From Algimonas porphyrae (GTDB lineage Bacteria; Pseudomonadota; Alphaproteobacteria; Caulobacterales; Maricaulaceae): a stretch of 64,000 nucleotides of DNA. The DNA is taken from positions 1,552,001-1,616,000 of the forward strand of contig NZ_CP163424.1 in the NCBI RefSeq assembly GCF_041429795.1. The letters run 5' to 3'. Numbering within the stretch: position 1 is the first letter of the stretch; each line of letters opens with the position of its first letter. Made by a program: the position numbers and the translations under genes. The notes below the pieces were generated by a model. The model ran no database searches. It was given only the letters and a program-made list of their open reading frames with translations, and was not told where the DNA came from. Positions 15,686-23,804 of this stretch are shown here, piece after piece.

Positions 15686-16645
15686 CTAACCGTCAGGCTT
15701 GCCCAGATAATCCGATGCGCTGCGCTTGCTGCCTTCGGCGGGCTCGTCTTCGCGCGTCCTGCGAATGCGCTCCAATGGGCTGAGCGGTTCCTCGGCGCGG
15801 GTCGCGGCTGGCCAAGCGTCAGATGCGCTGGCCGCGTCGTCGGCGGCACTATCACCATCCGACTGCCCGGATCCGGATCCATCAGCCGAATCGTTATTAC
15901 CGTCTGCCGCAGCGTCATCACCAGCACCCGCATCGTGACCGGACTGATCGGTTTGCGCCCGACCTTTTCCGTCCGAATTCGCTCCGTCATCCGTCTGACC
16001 GGATTCGCTTTGTGGTCCAGCCTGATCCGGACTGCTTGTTGCTCCTGCCTGTTCAGACCCAGAAGAACCGTCGCCACTGGAAGCCCCGCCACCGCCGCCA
16101 GTCTGACCGCTTTTGATGGCATCCATGATTTCCTGCAGGGTGCGTGTAGACCCGCCGCGAGAGCCGGTTGATGCGGTCCCGTTGCCCTGACCCGCAACGG
16201 CGACCTTGTTCGGGCCGCCTTCACCGGAACCCTGTCCGGATCCGCCGCTGCCTTTCATGTCCGTGACGATGACGTCCCAGGCTTCCTGCTCTTCGCGCAG
16301 GAGTTGTTCGTCATATTTCGCGGCGTCCGAAGGGACATATTCCGCGTCGGATATATCGCCGTCATCGCTTTCCGCGATCGCTTTGGCGCGTTCGCGCATC
16401 AGATGACGCCGTGAATCCGAAGGCAGGCGCTCAACCGGTGTGAGCGGTTTGATGTCGATCGAACCGACGCCTGTGGTCGAGCTGTTCGGCGTTCGATATA
16501 TGTCGGATGTGCCGCTTTTCTTGCGGGACTTACGCCAGTCTTCTTCAGACTGATCCGTCTGATCCGTAACTTGCGCATAGGCGGGAAGGGCGACGCCTAA
16601 AGCCGCCGTCAGCGCAAGTGTTGCCATGAAAGACCGTATCATCAT
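15686..16645 (-). CDS. secreted low-complexity protein, 319 aa
   Basis: Family unknown. It has a clear Sec signal peptide (cleavage near LPAYAQ, residue 25). The mature part to about residue 130 is charged and helical. From about 130 to 290 it is a low-complexity tract rich in Gly, Ser, Asp, Gln and Ala (GGSGQGSGEGG, SADGSGSGQSDGD) that must be disordered. A short conserved-looking tail follows (PLSPLERIRRTRED). It lies 75 bp downstream of the SUMF1-like gene on the same strand and may be the last member of that operon. Confidence 0.7.
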   Translation of the reverse strand: MMIRSFMATLALTAALGVALPAYAQVTDQTDQSEEDWRKSRKKSGTSDIYRTPNSSTTGVGSIDIKPLTPVERLPSDSRRHLMRERAKAIAESDDGDISDAEYVPSDAAKYDEQLLREEQEAWDVIVTDMKGSGGSGQGSGEGGPNKVAVAGQGNGTASTGSRGGSTRTLQEIMDAIKSGQTGGGGGASSGDGSSGSEQAGATSSPDQAGPQSESGQTDDGANSDGKGRAQTDQSGHDAGAGDDAAADGNNDSADGSGSGQSDGDSAADDAASASDAWPAATRAEEPLSPLERIRRTREDEPAEGSKRSASDYLGKPDG

Positions 16646-16720: not shown

Positions 16721-18268
16721 CTATCCATCGATTCTGCGGACCACACGAAAGCCGGTAAAATCGTTACGGTCGCCCCGGCGCAGCATCATCCGGGCAGAAT
16801 AGCGCAGATCGTCCGGCCCGCTGAACCAGGAGCCGCCGCGCACAGCTCTCTGGCCGCAGGACCCCCGGGAATCCGGGCTGCCGTCAACAGGCGCGTCGCG
16901 CAGGTTCAGTGTGTTGCAGTCCAGCGTCCATTCCGCGACATTGCCGACCATGTCGCGCAGGCCCAACGCATTGGCCGACAAGGTGCCGACGGGCAGGGTT
17001 CGCCCCACGCCCGGGTCGGTGCAGGCCGCATTGGCCCAGGCGACAGATGTTTCCGCCGACGCACCATTGGCAAAGGCGCATAGTGCCGCCGTCGATCCAC
17101 CCGGATAAAGATCATCGGCACCTGCACGTGCGGCATACTCCCACTGTGCTTCGCTGGGTAAGGAATAGCGAAACCCCGTCTCCTGCGATAGCCAAGCGGT
17201 GTAGGCCTGGGCGTCCGCAAAAGCGACATTGATGACGGGGCGCGATCCGCGCCCCCATCCGGCATCATCCGGACGTCGGTTGCAACCCCCAGCCGCGACA
17301 CATGCATCATATTCTGCGAAGGTCACTTCTTTCACACCCATGGCAAAAGACGCCGCCAGGTTGACAGGGCGGGCGGGTTTTTCATTGGGTCTGGCTGCAG
17401 CGTCTGTATCGAGCGCACCGAGCGTGTCGCTGCCGGAGGGCAGAACGGTCAGGGCCGGGCAGACATCGCAATCCTGAAACACTCTGCCGACCGATGGCCG
17501 CAGCCGCTCGATGGCGGCAATCGCCTGCGCGACATACGCGCCTTGCGGGAAACTGGTCAGATATTGCTGATAGGCGTCGGCGGTTCCGGCATTGTCTGCG
17601 GCCTGCCAGGCAGCCGTGTCAGCGGCGTTGGCCTGCAGAGTTGCGATGCGATTACGCGCGTCGGCTGCATTCGGCCCTGTCGGATGTTTTCCCAGATAGG
17701 TCTGGTAGCTCGCGACCGTATTTTCGCGTGCGGCCTGATCCCAGTCGGCCTGTTCCTGTGCGGCGCGCTCTGCGGCATCCTCTGCCGCGGCGTCGCGCGC
17801 AGCTTTCATCTGGGCAATGCGTTCGCGCGCTTTATCGGCGTGCAGGCCATCGTCCCAATCTGACAGATAATCTTCATAGCCGGCAATGGTGTTGCGCTGT
17901 TCCGCACTGGCCCAGGCCCGATTATCATAGGCGTTGATCTGTTCCTGCGCCTTGTCGGCAAACTTGCCTTGCGGGAATTCGGCCAGATAGTCGAGATAGC
18001 CTTGTAGCGTATCGATTTCCAATGCACGGACCCAAGCCTCTTCATCCGCACCCATAGGCGGCGCGTCGGGGTCGGGCGTCTCGCCTTGCGCGATGTCGAT
18101 CAAAGGTTCGCGGTCGAGACGGTCCGTGATCACAACCTGTGACGCCAGCCAGATACCACCTGCCGCGACCGCGCCGAGCAGGATCAGATAGACCAGATAG
18201 CGGCCCCATGGCGCGCGTTCTTCCTTGATTCCGAAGTCATCGGAAGGCGGCTGCCAGTCGTCGCTCAT
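16721..18268 (-). CDS. membrane-anchored SUMF1/formylglycine-generating-enzyme-like protein with helical repeats
   Basis: A 515-aa protein. A cytoplasmic N-terminus is followed by one membrane segment (about residues 25-48). Four helical repeats of the type W-x-A...T...YL..FP.G...DA...I span about residues 70-250. A C-terminal SUMF1 domain carries the typical ending RAVRGGSWFSG...FTGFRVVRR. Such domains are often binding modules rather than oxidases, and the paired active-site cysteines of true formylglycine generators are not obvious. The start overlaps the stop of the channel-like gene upstream by ATGA. Inferred role: periplasmic sensor or scaffold of the envelope complex encoded by the operon. 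Confidence 0.85.
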   Translation of the reverse strand: MSDDWQPPSDDFGIKEERAPWGRYLVYLILLGAVAAGGIWLASQVVITDRLDREPLIDIAQGETPDPDAPPMGADEEAWVRALEIDTLQGYLDYLAEFPQGKFADKAQEQINAYDNRAWASAEQRNTIAGYEDYLSDWDDGLHADKARERIAQMKAARDAAAEDAAERAAQEQADWDQAARENTVASYQTYLGKHPTGPNAADARNRIATLQANAADTAAWQAADNAGTADAYQQYLTSFPQGAYVAQAIAAIERLRPSVGRVFQDCDVCPALTVLPSGSDTLGALDTDAAARPNEKPARPVNLAASFAMGVKEVTFAEYDACVAAGGCNRRPDDAGWGRGSRPVINVAFADAQAYTAWLSQETGFRYSLPSEAQWEYAARAGADDLYPGGSTAALCAFANGASAETSVAWANAACTDPGVGRTLPVGTLSANALGLRDMVGNVAEWTLDCNTLNLRDAPVDGSPDSRGSCGQRAVRGGSWFSGPDDLRYSARMMLRRGDRNDFTGFRVVRRIDG

Positions 18269-19050
18269 CGGTCATTAGACTCCGTAATAGGGTTTTTGCC
18301 GAGCCTCAGGATCAGATTGTCGATCGTATATTGACCTGCCGCGTTGAGCGCGCGCTCTTCCTTGGCCTGAACCATGGATTGGACGAGCACCAGAACGGCG
18401 GACATGATCAGGGCGAGCAGTGTCGTGGTGAAGGCGACGCCGAGCCGTTGCGTGACCTGGTAGAGGAAGTCCTCGCTCTCTGCATTGGCGGGAACCCCGG
18501 CATATTGCAGCGCGAACATGATCCCCATGACGGTTCCGATAAAGCCGAGACTTGGGATCAGCCAGGTCAGATATCGCAGGATGGAATAGCGCAGGTCGAT
18601 TTCGTGCATATAGAGCTCAAGTGAGGCATTCATCACACCGAGCGCCTGATCTTCTTTGCCGCTGACGCGGTACTGATCGATGGTTCGGCTGATAAGACGT
18701 GGCAAGAAAGCGTTGCGGGCGAACTTTCGGCTCGCAATGCTGTCGCGGATCTTGCCCAGCACAGCGTGATCGAGCTGCCGTCCATCCGTCGGCAGATAAC
18801 CCCGCGCCAACTGGCTTTCCTCATCCTTGGCGGCGCTCCAGCGCAGGACCAGCTCGCCGAAGCCGGTAAAGAGCGCAATCCACATGATGTTCTGCACCGT
18901 GAACGGCCAGAAGGAGGCGTCGCTATCGAGCAGGATTTCCTGCAGGGCCGGGCCCGTCGTAAACCGGATAATGCCGATCAGCACGACTGCCGCGACAATG
19001 GCGATGAGAAACACGAAAGCGCGTTTGATGAGCGTGTCTGTCTGGTTCAT
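18265..19050 (-). CDS. MotA/TolQ/ExbB-like proton channel family protein
   Basis: A 261-aa inner-membrane protein with four hydrophobic segments: about 10-28, a second at FWPFTVQNIMWIALF, and the two family-defining helices LIPSLGFIGTVMGIMFAL and LGVAFTTTLLALIMSAVLVLVQ. A large cytoplasmic loop lies between segments 2 and 3. The Gly/Thr pattern in the last two helices matches TolQ/ExbB/MotA subunits, which use the proton gradient. Its natural partners would be the two VWA proteins encoded just upstream, which replace ExbD/TolR here. It overlaps the SUMF1-like gene by 4 bp. Confidence 0.87.
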   Translation of the reverse strand: MNQTDTLIKRAFVFLIAIVAAVVLIGIIRFTTGPALQEILLDSDASFWPFTVQNIMWIALFTGFGELVLRWSAAKDEESQLARGYLPTDGRQLDHAVLGKIRDSIASRKFARNAFLPRLISRTIDQYRVSGKEDQALGVMNASLELYMHEIDLRYSILRYLTWLIPSLGFIGTVMGIMFALQYAGVPANAESEDFLYQVTQRLGVAFTTTLLALIMSAVLVLVQSMVQAKEERALNAAGQYTIDNLILRLGKNPITESNDR

Positions 19051-19093
19051 CGGATAGGTCCTAACGCGTCAGATTGAATTTAGTAACAGGGCA

Positions 19094-20077
19094 TCAGTCA
19101 CACACACCCTGATCGGTGCTGGCCAGAGCCATGAACTGGCCGCTATTGCGTTCGGCCAATTCTTCCATGAACTCGACCGTGCCGTCATAATCGAAATAGT
19201 TGCCGACCACGACTGTATGGATTTCCTTGCGCCCATTATTGAGGCGCGTGAGTTCGCGCACCAATCGATTGGGCGACAGACCATTATTGGCTGCCGGATT
19301 GGGCAGTCCGTCGGACACGAGAAAAATCGCCTGCCCGGGGCCGTTCAGAAGAGTTTGAAACGCATCCAGCATGGAGGCCGAGCCGCCAAACTGCGTCGTC
19401 AGGCGCGCGGCGAACTGTTTGGCTTGTGTCTGCGCGCCCGCGGCGTTGACGTTGCGGAGGCCGCCGCCCGGTGGCCAGGCTTGCGTGCGCGGACCGCTAT
19501 CGGTTTGCTGAAAGCCGATAACGCGCAAAGCGTGATTGTCCTGCAGGCTGTCAATAATACGGTCGATGGCGCGAGCGACACTACGCTCATGCCCGGCCAT
19601 GCAGCGATTCATGTCCAGCGCGATCGCGATGTCATCCTGCGCTGTCTTCAGCCCCAGAAACCGGAAAGAGACAAGCGCCGGTTTGGGACTGTCCTGCGGG
19701 GCGGGCTTGTCTACGACGGGCTCGGGTTCTGGGGTAGCGCGAATGACTTCGGCCTGTTTTTCGAGCAGGGCCGCTTCCGCCGCGCGCAGTTCCGCCAGCA
19801 GCTTATCAGCGTCCGACCGGATGTCGGACACGGCCTGAATGGATGCCGAGCGCTTGGCTTCCAGCGCCTTGCGCTTCTCGACCGTCTCGACGGAGCTGTC
19901 CTCGGCAGCCCGGAGCAGGTCGCTAATGGCGTTTTCCGGCGTCAGTTCGCGGATCTCCTTCTGATAGTAGGGCAGAAGGATAATCGCGAGCAGGGCGAAG
20001 GCGCCCATGGCGGCTGCGAACAGATCGACCGCGCTGAGCGAGAAGACATTGACCTCTCTGTCGGCGCGCCTTTTCAT
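19094..20077 (-). CDS. membrane-anchored VWA-domain protein with degenerate MIDAS
   Basis: A 327-aa protein paralogous to the gene upstream. I place the start at the ATG at 20077 (MKRRADREVN), which aligns with the paralogue; a GTG at 20116 would overlap the upstream gene by 26 bp. One membrane helix with an Asp at its start (Asp18, SAVDLFAAAMGAF) resembles ExbD/TolR/MotB anchors. A coiled coil spans about 40-115, a Pro-rich linker follows, and then a VWA domain. The MIDAS motif is ALDMNRC (Asp155, Asn157, Cys159) instead of DxSxS, so metal-dependent ligand binding is doubtful. Confidence 0.85.
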   Translation of the reverse strand: MKRRADREVNVFSLSAVDLFAAAMGAFALLAIILLPYYQKEIRELTPENAISDLLRAAEDSSVETVEKRKALEAKRSASIQAVSDIRSDADKLLAELRAAEAALLEKQAEVIRATPEPEPVVDKPAPQDSPKPALVSFRFLGLKTAQDDIAIALDMNRCMAGHERSVARAIDRIIDSLQDNHALRVIGFQQTDSGPRTQAWPPGGGLRNVNAAGAQTQAKQFAARLTTQFGGSASMLDAFQTLLNGPGQAIFLVSDGLPNPAANNGLSPNRLVRELTRLNNGRKEIHTVVVGNYFDYDGTVEFMEELAERNSGQFMALASTDQGVCD

Positions 20078-20090
20078 GACTTGAAGCGCG

Positions 20091-21029
20091 TCATCGCGCC
20101 CGCCCGACAAAGTCACCGCGATTGTTGCTGGCCAGTTCCTGCAGGAACAGGGTCAATTGGGGGTCAGACGTATAGTCGCCGATCGCAACCGTGTGAATCT
20201 CGGACCGGCCCCGGTTACGGCGTGTGATGTTCCGGACAATGTCGCCGGGCTGACCATCGTCGGGCTGTCCATCACTGATCAGAATGACGGCACCGGGCTG
20301 CAGATTCAGCGCGCGAACCAGCGCGCTTTGCGTCGGCGTCCCGCCACCAAAGTCGCGCGGTAGACGCGACACGAAGTTCAGTGCGCCCCGGACATCGTTC
20401 GGCGTGGCGCGGGTGAGGGCTCCGCCAGGTGGGTAGGTGGAATAGCTTGGCCCGCCGCGATAGCCGAGAATGGCAAAGCGGTTGTCAGCCTGCATCTGAC
20501 CGAGAATTTCGTTGAGGGCAGACACCACATTCGATGTGTGGGACTGCATCGAACCGGACATGTCGACCACGATCAGCACGTCCTTTTGCGATGTGCCGAT
20601 ACCCAGAATGGAAAATTCGACACCTCGTCCCGTCGATCGCGGCGGATTGGGAATGGGGTCGGGTTCCGGAACGGGTTTCGGGATCGGGGGCGGATCGGGA
20701 ATTTCGATCTCAGCCGTCTGTTGCTGGACTTCGCGAATTTTCGCCTCGATGTCCGACATATTTTCTTCGGTCGTGCGATATTGTCTGTCTAGCAGGCGGA
20801 TTTCTGCCTGAATGGCACGGATTTCGGCCATTTCGGACTGGGTCGAGGAAGCAACAAGGCGGCGCTTTTCGACAAGTTCTTCCAATTCTTCCATCGACGT
20901 GTCCGAGCCGCCCAGCTTGTAATAGGGAAACAGCACCAGAACGATCAGGATGAACGCCCCCAGCGCAGCTGCGAACAGGTCCAGCGCTGAGATGGAGAAG
21001 ACGGTGATGTTACGCTGGCGTGACCGCAT
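20091..21029 (-). CDS. membrane-anchored VWA-domain protein with intact MIDAS
   Basis: A 312-aa protein. A short basic N-terminus is followed by one membrane helix beginning at Asp17 (SALDLFAAALGAF), placed like the proton-pathway Asp of ExbD/TolR/MotB. A coiled coil spans about 45-110, then a Pro-rich linker, then a VWA domain from about 135. The MIDAS is complete: Asp156, Ser158 and Ser160 in VVDMSGSM, a later Thr in GGGTPTQ, and Asp in SDGQPDD. It should bind a divalent metal and an acidic ligand in the periplasm. It sits 13 bp after the 266-aa gene and precedes its paralogue. Confidence 0.87.
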   Translation of the reverse strand: MRSRQRNITVFSISALDLFAAALGAFILIVLVLFPYYKLGGSDTSMEELEELVEKRRLVASSTQSEMAEIRAIQAEIRLLDRQYRTTEENMSDIEAKIREVQQQTAEIEIPDPPPIPKPVPEPDPIPNPPRSTGRGVEFSILGIGTSQKDVLIVVDMSGSMQSHTSNVVSALNEILGQMQADNRFAILGYRGGPSYSTYPPGGALTRATPNDVRGALNFVSRLPRDFGGGTPTQSALVRALNLQPGAVILISDGQPDDGQPGDIVRNITRRNRGRSEIHTVAIGDYTSDPQLTLFLQELASNNRGDFVGRAR

Positions 21030-21042
21030 TCAGCCCGGGCCG

Positions 21043-21843
21043 CTAACCAATGCCGCCCAGAATGCGGATCAGCGAGAACAGACGTTCGCGCTTCGCATTC
21101 TCGCGCGCCTGCTCGTCCATGTCGCGGGCGAGTGCGGCGGCATCCTGAACGGTTTCGGCATTGACGCCTTCATTCACTGCATCGTTGGACCGGGCCAGCC
21201 GCTTATCCAGATCCCCCATATAAAGGGCTTCGAGCTCATCGATTTCGTCTGCAAAGCCGACATATTCGATGTCATCGCGTTCCGTGACCAGCGCAGCCGT
21301 ATAGGCGCGGACGGCCTGCCGTTCCCCCGCACCGAGACGATCCAGCGCCTCGGAGAGGATCTGGCGCAGATAGAGCGCGTCCTCGCGAATAGCCATGTCA
21401 TTGGCGGACAGATCAGACCGAAAAGCCAGCAGACTATCGACCTGTCCCTGAATGAAACTGCCGCATAGCGCGTCGAAATAGGCGATATGGGCCATGCCGG
21501 CGACAGTTCGTTCCGGGGCGGCCTGTCGCAGCACAGGATCGGCAATGTCTTCGATAACGTCGATCATCGGGAAGTCGGCACGCAGGCGTCGGACTTCGTT
21601 CTGCGTCATATAGTCGGCCATGAGCTGCGAGAGTTCGGGCGTGATGTCATCTGATAAAGCCTGGCTCAGGCGGAAGAAAATATAGCGCGATTTAGGGCCT
21701 TCATCCGGGAAACCGGACATCAGCGTCACGCATTGTTCCGTCTGCTCCGTCGTCAGGGATGAGGGAGCAATTTGCGCCGCATCACTGGCCCAGCCTGTCA
21801 GCGGGAGCAGCAAAGCCGTCGTTGTTATCAGAAATGACTTCAT
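21043..21843 (-). CDS. secreted helical protein, 266 aa, in the VWA operon
   Basis: Family not recognised. A Sec signal peptide (MKSFLITTTALLLPLTGWA) is followed by an all-helical mature domain of about 245 residues with regularly spaced Leu and acidic residues, probably partly coiled coil toward the C-terminus (ALARDMDEQARENAKRERL). Its ATG overlaps the stop of the MORN-type lipoprotein gene (ATGA), and the first VWA gene follows after 13 bp, so it belongs to the same expression unit. A periplasmic partner of the VWA domains is the simplest inference. Confidence 0.78.
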   Translation of the reverse strand: MKSFLITTTALLLPLTGWASDAAQIAPSSLTTEQTEQCVTLMSGFPDEGPKSRYIFFRLSQALSDDITPELSQLMADYMTQNEVRRLRADFPMIDVIEDIADPVLRQAAPERTVAGMAHIAYFDALCGSFIQGQVDSLLAFRSDLSANDMAIREDALYLRQILSEALDRLGAGERQAVRAYTAALVTERDDIEYVGFADEIDELEALYMGDLDKRLARSNDAVNEGVNAETVQDAAALARDMDEQARENAKRERLFSLIRILGGIG

Positions 21844-23804
21844 CCGCTCCTGTCTCCCAGTCTGAAGGGCGATGCGACGACCGATCCAGCCGGAGCCTCG
21901 CCCATATCCTGACCCTGTCTATAACGCCTGAGTGCAACGGAACCTGAACGTTCGACCCGCATCACCCCGTTGGCAGCGCCTTGGGCAAAATTGCCTTCAA
22001 GCGCATAGGATCCCTGCGGCGCGCGGACGATGCGGTAGCCCGGCCCATCGGAGCGACCATCCCGGGCATAGCCGTAATGTTCGACCAGATCACCGCGATT
22101 ATTGCGGAACACACCGACACCTGAACCATTGGCCAGACCATCTTCACACGCGCCCAGCCATGTCCCTGTACCCGTCGGACCGGAATAGGCGCAGCGTGTC
22201 GCGACCGTATCGAGTGATCGCTGGTTCTCGGCGTAGAGTTCGCCAAGCTTCGCTTTCAGATCCTCAAAGCGAATGGCCGTAATGGTTTCGTTGCTGTCGA
22301 TCAGATCGACTTGGATTTCCGTTTGCATGTTAAGCGCAGGAATCATCGCCTGCAGATAGTTGGACCCGACCGCATCCGAGAGGCGGTTACGGCGCATGGC
22401 TTCGGTCGCGCTGAATATCGCCCCTTGAATAGCGGCATTGATGGCGATCTGCTCGCCGATGTTCGGACCTCTGTCCCGTGCGTTCCGGTCAAGACATGCC
22501 TGATATTCACGCCGGCTTTGCGCATTGGAACAGTCCTCATCACCGCCGCCACTGCTATTGGCAATGGCGACACCTGCGACGACGGCAGACAGGACGCCGA
22601 GCGCGACGGCCGTATTTTGCTGCCGGGCGAGTTTGCGGCGTTCTTCCAGCACACGATATTCTTCCCGCAGAATATCACGCACCTGGGCGCCCATTTCGCC
22701 ATTGATGACGCCGTCATAGAGGCGCAGCGACTGGACCGAGAGATATTTCTGCTCCGCCTCGAGCAGCCGTTCGGCATAGCGAAGCCGGGCGAGGTAATCC
22801 GGTGCATCGTCGCCCACCAGCGTCAGCGCGGCAAGGCTCTCATCATAGTCGGAAATGGCGTCCGCGCGGCGGAACATGGACGCCTTGACTGGATCGGCCC
22901 GGTTGATGATGTCGACGACACGGTTCACGAAACCGTCCGTGAAAGCATATTCCAATATGTCGCCACTATCCTTGTCGAGGTTAGACACGCTCGCCCCATC
23001 CAGCCGTATTTTCTCGATCGGGTAGGCGCTTACGGTCCCCGCGCGCGGCTGCGTCAAGCGGGACCGCTCCGGGCTCTGTACCGGCGCAGCGGAAATATGG
23101 CTGATCAGGTCCAGCTCCGGGACGCCCGCTTCGATGCGTCCCGCTTGCAAGGCCGTCGCGTCCGTGATGGCCTGCGCATAATTCTGCCCGGCGGCGGAAT
23201 CGATGATGGGGGATGAGGCCAGCAGGATGCCTTCCGTTCCGACGGCTGCGCGCGGATCGGTCCGGACCGTCACCAGCGGGGTGATCAGATCACCGAAGCT
23301 GAGCGGCTTGTCACCCATCATGGCTTCAGGGTCAGGATAGCTGTATGTGGTGAAGTCGACGGCGACGACGGATGGCAGGCTTTCCGCCTGTGTCATCGGC
23401 ACTGAGGTCAGCGACCCGTCACTGGCGAGTGTAATGCGGTGCGGGCTGAGCAGAACGGAATGTTCGGGCAGGCGCGCAGCGAGTTCCCGGTAGAGCGACA
23501 TGGCGAAATAGTTGGACTTCAGAACCATGGAGTTGGCGAGCGCCTGCGTTTCGACCGCATCGGACGATCCGCCCCGCCCACCGATGGCCGCGCCTGCATA
23601 AGCTTCGGCGAAGTCGGCTTCGGCGTCCTCTTCGACAAAAGCCGGGAAGCGGATGACAGCCAGCGTCGTTCCCACAGGCGCGCTTTGGCGCAAGGTGACC
23701 TCAGGACCGCCCGTCATTGCGCTGGTTCGTGTGCCCTGCGCGGTTGACGCACAGCCGGTCATGATCAGGGCTGTCCCCAGTAAAAGGATAAGGGGTTTGC
23801 GCAT
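21840..23804 (-). CDS. large lipoprotein with C-terminal MORN-like repeats
   Basis: First gene of the VWA/channel operon. I chose the ATG at 23804 (MRKPLILLLG), with GGAG upstream and a lipobox MTGC near residue 17; a longer frame from 23831 spoils the signal peptide. The mature 654-aa product has an alpha/beta-looking N-terminal half, a hydrophobic helix near the middle (AVALGVLSAVVAGVAIANSSGGG), a Cys-containing stretch, and a C-terminal region with glycine-spaced MORN-like units (GTGTWLGAC, GSGVGVFRN, GPGYRIVR, GANGVMRVERSG style). MORN repeats bind lipids or proteins. Likely outer-membrane-anchored component; function unknown. Confidence 0.8.
   Translation of the reverse strand: MRKPLILLLGTALIMTGCASTAQGTRTSAMTGGPEVTLRQSAPVGTTLAVIRFPAFVEEDAEADFAEAYAGAAIGGRGGSSDAVETQALANSMVLKSNYFAMSLYRELAARLPEHSVLLSPHRITLASDGSLTSVPMTQAESLPSVVAVDFTTYSYPDPEAMMGDKPLSFGDLITPLVTVRTDPRAAVGTEGILLASSPIIDSAAGQNYAQAITDATALQAGRIEAGVPELDLISHISAAPVQSPERSRLTQPRAGTVSAYPIEKIRLDGASVSNLDKDSGDILEYAFTDGFVNRVVDIINRADPVKASMFRRADAISDYDESLAALTLVGDDAPDYLARLRYAERLLEAEQKYLSVQSLRLYDGVINGEMGAQVRDILREEYRVLEERRKLARQQNTAVALGVLSAVVAGVAIANSSGGGDEDCSNAQSRREYQACLDRNARDRGPNIGEQIAINAAIQGAIFSATEAMRRNRLSDAVGSNYLQAMIPALNMQTEIQVDLIDSNETITAIRFEDLKAKLGELYAENQRSLDTVATRCAYSGPTGTGTWLGACEDGLANGSGVGVFRNNRGDLVEHYGYARDGRSDGPGYRIVRAPQGSYALEGNFAQGAANGVMRVERSGSVALRRYRQGQDMGEAPAGSVVASPFRLGDRSG

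Follow-up and report, generated by a model that had tools for sequence, protein, structure and literature searches.

Seven minus-strand genes in a 64,000-nucleotide stretch of the Algimonas porphyrae genome (NZ_CP163424.1, positions 1,552,001 to 1,616,000; hereafter the window) probably encode a proton-driven machine running from the inner to the outer membrane, a 5:2 motor of the MotA/TolQ/ExbB kind in which two VWA proteins replace ExbD, TolR or MotB, and whose phosphorylation switch has now been lost. The genes are referred to here, in their order, as morn, per, vwa1, vwa2, channel, SUMF1 and tail. Judging from their order and from one clean deletion of a kinase domain, the window motor seems to descend from a motor that was wired to a Ser/Thr-phosphorylation switch. 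A wider proposal is offered only tentatively, namely that VWA motors form a family gated by Ser/Thr phosphorylation, through a transmembrane (TM) SUMF1-kinase, an FHA adaptor and a PP2C phosphatase, and that in the window lineage a kinase-free derivative of it has arisen naturally. To our knowledge, a link between any 5:2 motor and a set of Hanks kinase, FHA and PP2C proteins has not been described, and none was found in the literature searched.

Channel and paired VWA proteins

The host genome is complete (3.17 Mb, alphaproteobacterial), and its nearest named relatives in the channel tree are Algimonas. An earlier note on this DNA had described six tightly coupled genes at 16721-23804, with 4-bp overlaps and gaps below 45 bp, and both the open reading frames (ORFs) and the spacing were confirmed: 4-bp overlaps join morn to per and channel to SUMF1, while the gaps are 13 bp (per/vwa1), 13 bp (vwa1/vwa2, with the ATG at 20077) and 43 bp (vwa2/channel). 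The six genes are all present, but a seventh downstream gene at 15686-16645 had been missed, as had the kinase, FHA and PP2C ancestry. FGE-sulfatase, MotA_ExbB and VWA are the Pfam families in the set; none of the remaining proteins (morn, per and tail) reached the cut-off of a Pfam family, and per and tail had no NCBIfam hit either.

The channel gene (18265-19050, minus strand) encodes a MotA/TolQ/ExbB-like protein of 261 amino acids (aa), as had been noticed earlier, with 43.5 bits to Pfam MotA_ExbB (cut-off 22.9). Its Thr173 and Thr210 stand at the TolQ/ExbB ring positions: in an alignment with the TolQ- and ExbB-type channels of the same genome, they coincide with the threonines of the GTV motif and of TM3. 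The ring threonines occur in 66 of 67 channel sequences, the remaining one being gapped there. The vwa1 gene (20091-21029, minus strand) encodes a single predicted TM helix with Asp17, a coiled coil, a Pro-rich linker and a periplasmic VWA domain, which scored 46.3 bits against Pfam VWA_3. Its paralogue vwa2 (19094-20077, minus strand) carries Asp18 in the corresponding helix; the ORF search lists a GTG start at 20116, but the start was set at ATG 20077, and that of morn at ATG 23804, because close relatives begin there. The VWA match of vwa2 (22.7 bits) is under the 27-bit cut-off, and the profile alignment between vwa1 and vwa2 reached a probability of 100. Thus both proteins were found to have the N-terminal helix Asp that the earlier note had pointed out. 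A helix of the form 'FSxSAxDLFAAAxGAF' with the Asp is found in 51 of 55 vwa1 ORFs and 53 of 55 vwa2 ORFs; the exceptions (four and two, respectively) are ORFs whose N-terminus is trimmed or lost, and every readable VWA N-terminus has the Asp. The MIDAS-like motif is intact in vwa1 (DMSGSM, GGTPT, SDG) and degenerate in vwa2 (DMNRCM, GGSAS, SDG). According to Pfam, vwa1 and vwa2 match VWA models only, with neither an ExbD/TolR (PF02472) nor an OmpA-type domain. Matches of the VWA profile to influenza haemagglutinin were set aside, as they fall in the coiled coil.

The genome holds five MotA/ExbB-type channels in total and four ExbD/TolR genes, none of the latter in the cluster: three adjoin other channels and one lies alone about 103 kb away. 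Judged from these sequences, the TM Asp and the ring threonines support a MotA/TolQ-like motor with an axle made by VWA proteins. In this respect the VWA-ended stator proposed earlier fits the data, while its transmission of force and its ligand binding are here put forward conditionally.

Conservation and co-inheritance of the gene set

A scan of genome contigs with a channel profile yielded 66 loci, of which 38 belong to the family and 28 lie outside it. The family loci are those of marine Robiginitomaculaceae and Hyphomonadaceae and of Caulobacterales metagenome-assembled genomes. The order morn-per-vwa1-vwa2-channel-SUMF1-tail is kept in the 38 family loci, barring contig ends, inserted genes and unrecognised tails, and the flanking genes vary between loci while the seven-gene order stays. 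Co-occurrence in genome neighbourhoods, the check that the earlier note had recommended, was found: the channel and the two VWA genes are together in the same 14 of 40 relatives and jointly absent from the other 26 (agreement 40/40), and therefore the genes do travel together in other genomes. Because the order is the same in 38 loci and presence and absence agree in all 40 relatives, the gene set is not a product of chance.

Two variations were seen around the SUMF1 gene. Litorimonas-like loci have an extra gene of about 165 aa between channel and SUMF1 (L048 10755-11261, plus strand), which is weakly DUF6585-like (23.7 bits, cut-off 27.7). In other loci the SUMF1 protein has an extended N-terminus of about 200 aa.

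SUMF1-like protein and probable loss of the kinase

The SUMF1 gene (16721-18268, minus strand) encodes a predicted inner-membrane helix, helical repeats and a C-terminal FGE/PvdO-like domain. Its earlier description as a membrane-anchored SUMF1-like protein holds, with 156 bits to Pfam FGE-sulfatase and one hydrophobic segment at residues 25-43; the nearest solved structure to the domain is PvdO (130.7 bits). The catalytic cysteines of formylglycine-generating enzyme (FGE) are absent, as no Cys occurs past residue 471 and the GGSW/GGSY motif reads GGSWFSGPDDLRYSARM. The domain would have a structural or ligand-binding role and not an enzymatic one.

Domain mapping of the 66 loci showed that the channel has an FHA gene as its neighbour in all but one of the 28 non-family loci (27 of 28), which come from gammaproteobacterial, rhizobial and rhodospirillal relatives. 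Ser/Thr kinase and PP2C phosphatase genes, often present, and trypsin-FHA genes also neighbour these channels in varying sets, joined by CHAT-TPR in Lysobacterales. A kinase-TM-repeat-SUMF1 fusion of 800-860 aa is found in nine gammaproteobacterial loci and in the family loci L075 and L080. Residues 4-515 of the window SUMF1 protein align to 325-842 of the L080 fusion with 55% identity, so that its start falls directly behind the missing kinase part, and Pfam detects no kinase domain in the window protein. The channel tree places the gammaproteobacterial group as sister to the family (100/98), and a single change on it accounts for where the kinase is present. Branching within the family around L075 and L080 is weak; therefore a single kinase loss is the simplest reading but not a proof. 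The window SUMF1 protein is most parsimoniously viewed, on sequence grounds, as the C-terminal sensor half of an ancestral kinase fusion from which the kinase was deleted.

No neighbours are commoner across the loci than the kinase, FHA and PP2C genes, and these could be taken to mean that the system is a sensor and not a machine. The channel and the VWA helices would then detect proton leak or tension, and the SUMF1 kinase would have read their periplasmic state, an output lost or swapped in the window lineage. A precedent is the threonine-phosphorylation pathway of the type VI secretion system (T6SS), where periplasmic TagR and outer-membrane TagQ activate a membrane kinase that is accompanied by FHA and PP2C proteins (PMC10482370). 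However, 36 of the 38 family loci no longer carry the kinase, FHA and PP2C genes but retain all envelope parts in order, which suggests that the envelope parts work without them. We consider a pure sensor unlikely. The window genome has no FHA match and no PP2C_2 match. Its only detected Ser/Thr kinase is an unrelated kinase-TPR protein (L127 2483-13001; C1:1179482-1190000), whose gene lies near transposase-like ORFs, with a VWA-like ORF further on. A kinase-bearing relative is carried by the conjugative plasmid pRlBT01d of Rhizobium leguminosarum; in this unannotated record (L135 3732-20774), PP2C, kinase, FHA, channel and VWA-type genes lie together.

Relationship to the published class of VWA motors

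The earlier note knew of no named system with this gene set and called the machine undescribed, which was too strong. A stator with VWA heads is not new: a 2025 study already predicts such motors as a class (PMC12204202; Mol Biol Evol 2025, msaf138), describing paired heterologous 'transpore-helix' vWA proteins, tethered by a TM helix, that are encoded beside tolQ-like genes without tolR or exbD. According to that paper, the class has an Asp in the transpore helix and a threonine ring, rotation within the pentamer is proposed, and the prediction was made from gene pairs and AlphaFold 3 models and includes proteins of Idiomarina loihiensis (PMC12204202). The window system shares with it the paired different VWA proteins, the TolQ-like neighbour, the lack of ExbD/TolR, the helix Asp and the ring threonines. 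In contrast, the section of the paper that was consulted does not mention a SUMF1 protein, a kinase/FHA/PP2C set, a MORN lipoprotein, per or tail, and in our tree the window sequences stand on a separate branch, distant from the gammaproteobacterial type.

A phylum-wide search with the channel profile recovered gammaproteobacterial clusters with the layout of the published class, in which the SUMF1 protein is of PEGA-FGE type. Homology was established to these clusters (L128-L134), so that the comparison with the class runs through their shared layout and not through the Idiomarina loihiensis proteins of the paper. The channel, VWA and SUMF1 proteins of this second cluster type are homologous to those of the window at profile probabilities of 98.5-99.7, which favours the proposed motor. 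A SUMF1 partner is therefore common to two distant cluster types. It is plausible that the mechanism proposed for the class operates in the window lineage.

The VWA motors predicted in 2025 carry no reported function or phenotype. To the class, the present family contributes three things: a SUMF1 partner that is always there, a conserved set of parts with an outer-membrane-type lipoprotein, and a phospho-signalling arm for which the present tree most simply implies one loss; the history from kinase-bearing to kinase-free clusters and the constant SUMF1 partner were not found described in the literature searched. Lineages with and without the kinase constitute a natural experiment on the role of the motor and its switching, and Algimonas arctica, Litorimonas cladophorae and the kinase-bearing Rhizobium leguminosarum plasmid make the family testable.

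Proposed mechanism

The data show the gene content, its conservation, the key residues, the co-inheritance, the absence of the kinase and its most parsimonious loss; from these features we infer an assembly, its proton drive, rotation and force transfer, its contact partners and a cellular role. The channel pentamer would enclose a pair of TM helices, most simply one from vwa1 and one from vwa2, and proton flow past the helix Asp and the ring threonines would rotate or shift them. The coiled coils and Pro-rich linkers would transmit this motion to the periplasmic VWA heads, of which one appears able to bind metal and ligand and the other is degenerate. The SUMF1-like protein may serve as a non-enzymatic docking fold at the inner membrane, as PorK/GldK do, and together with per, the disordered tail and morn it may form a periplasmic and outer-membrane track under the heads. 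In the ancestor, SUMF1 would have been the sensor half of a TM Ser/Thr kinase partnered by FHA and PP2C proteins; in the window lineage the kinase would have been deleted and the sensor retained.

Several observations weigh against this machine. In eight of the 66 loci no VWA gene is recognisable in the DNA examined; some of these lie on short contigs, which is not the case for L094, L098 and L109. The family is rare among sampled genomes outside its group, being present in 6 of 289 genomes of the class, the window genome counted. The window genome holds an orphan ExbD gene (C1:1673356-1673700) without a MotA/ExbB-type channel alongside. Moreover, high profile scores between channel families occur also among distant members of the superfamily, and profile comparison detected no counterpart of morn, per or tail in the second cluster type.

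As a separate observation, L094, L098 and L109, in whose examined DNA no VWA gene was recognised, are FHA-channel pairs, and L094 and L098 also have PP2C.

Comparison with other envelope systems

By the features tested, the window system lies outside the type IX secretion system (T9SS), the T6SS, Zorya and the FGE enzymes. T9SS GldKLMN/PorKLMN, like the proposed window machine, combines a proton-driven inner-membrane motor with a hub of SUMF1/FGE fold that lacks the catalytic cysteines; in the T9SS, such SUMF1-fold proteins (PorK) serve beside a proton-driven 5:2 motor (PMC12421860). However, PorK is an outer-membrane lipoprotein ring whereas an inner-membrane helix is predicted in the window SUMF1, the terminal domains are Ig-like in PorM and VWA in the window proteins, and the window SUMF1 scored 74 bits with NCBIfam GldK against a cut-off of 350, outside the GldK equivalog. 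The T6SS threonine-phosphorylation pathway (PpkA, PppA, Fha, TagQRST) and the ancestral cluster both join a membrane Ser/Thr kinase, FHA, PP2C, VWA and a periplasmic sensor. The pathway has no proton channel, though, and in the window the VWA domains are on separate helices; nor does the window genome show a VipB match that would indicate a T6SS sheath. TolQR, ExbBD and MotAB share the channel family, the ring Thr and the helix Asp with the window system, but their B subunit has a TolR/ExbD or OmpA-type domain where the window counterpart ends in VWA.

The gene set could also be read as a TonB/TolA-like force transducer for outer-membrane transport or for adhesion to surfaces, whose VWA head would bind the outer membrane. 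The Pro-rich linkers and the outer-membrane-type lipoprotein in the operon agree with this, an ExbB-TonB-TPR cluster adjoins several gammaproteobacterial copies, and in Myxococcus gliding the VWA adhesin CglB works with the AglRQS motor (PMC13104615). None of the constant neighbours of the family loci, though, encodes an outer-membrane barrel, a TonB-dependent receptor or an adhesin, and we regard such a transducer as quite improbable. The ExbB-TonB-TPR type cluster was seen in several Lysobacterales/Chromatiales loci (L090 184-3186, L092 101-3106), TonB being assigned by a look at the sequence only.

Zorya ZorAB likewise has a MotA/ExbB-family channel in a non-motility setting, and the CHAT, trypsin-like and kinase domains among relatives could, together with SUMF1, point to an anti-phage or conflict system. 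The ZorA matches are weak (best 17.8 bits; NCBIfam ZorA_3 14.2 bits vs a cut-off of 250), and neither the OmpA domain of ZorB nor any other Zorya protein occurs among the seven window proteins. Furthermore, the gene order and content of the family are stable and not rapidly turning over, a vwa1 search of phages and plasmids found no copy, and a channel-profile search of viral contigs found no relative. A defence role is therefore very improbable, and the proton-driven envelope machine is preferred. Plasmids were also searched with the VWA protein of the second cluster type, and no match was found. The CHAT-TPR gene is divergent from vwa1 in Lysobacterales (L090 3198-6344, minus strand; also L084, L086, L089, L091, L092, L093 and L096). 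A MoxR-vWA conflict system (PMC7159879) was another candidate; scanning the seven proteins with Pfam revealed no AAA+ ATPase.

Lipoprotein, helical protein and tail

The morn gene (21840-23804, minus strand) encodes a predicted outer-membrane-type lipoprotein of 654 aa from ATG 23804, the ORF list starting at GTG 23831. Its MORN-type nature, already recognised in the earlier reading, was borne out: the lipobox Cys27 is invariant across 32 homologues (alignment A3), and residues 541-659 of the AlphaFold2 model (pLDDT 81.9, pTM 0.81) match junctophilin-2 and MORN4 with VIA-align Z of 10-11. The predicted layout consists of an alpha/beta N-terminal part, long helices, which include a hydrophobic stretch at 397-415, and a C-terminal MORN sheet. 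As a guess, the first 290 residues may be CsgG/LpoB-like; the N-terminal part matches BAR-type coiled coils only, which were taken as chance matches for long helices.

The per gene (21043-21843, minus strand) encodes a putative periplasmic protein of 266 aa, and its earlier description as helical agrees with an all-helical AlphaFold2 model (pLDDT 87.1). A structure search with per gave no Foldseek match better than E 0.3 and a best VIA Z of 5.9, none above background. The tail gene (15686-16645, minus strand) was recognised as co-conserved 3' of the SUMF1 gene, and its product is probably a secreted, low-complexity protein, with a signal peptide, a conserved N-terminal 'QTDQSEEDWRKS' block and a Gly/Ser/Asp/Gln-rich low-complexity remainder. 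The second cluster type has a lipoprotein, a ~485-aa protein and an S-rich protein of its own, but a comparison of these with morn, per and tail found no homology. In L090, homologues of per and morn sit beside the gammaproteobacterial cluster and run the opposite way, an arrangement that favours a functional connection between these proteins and the cluster.

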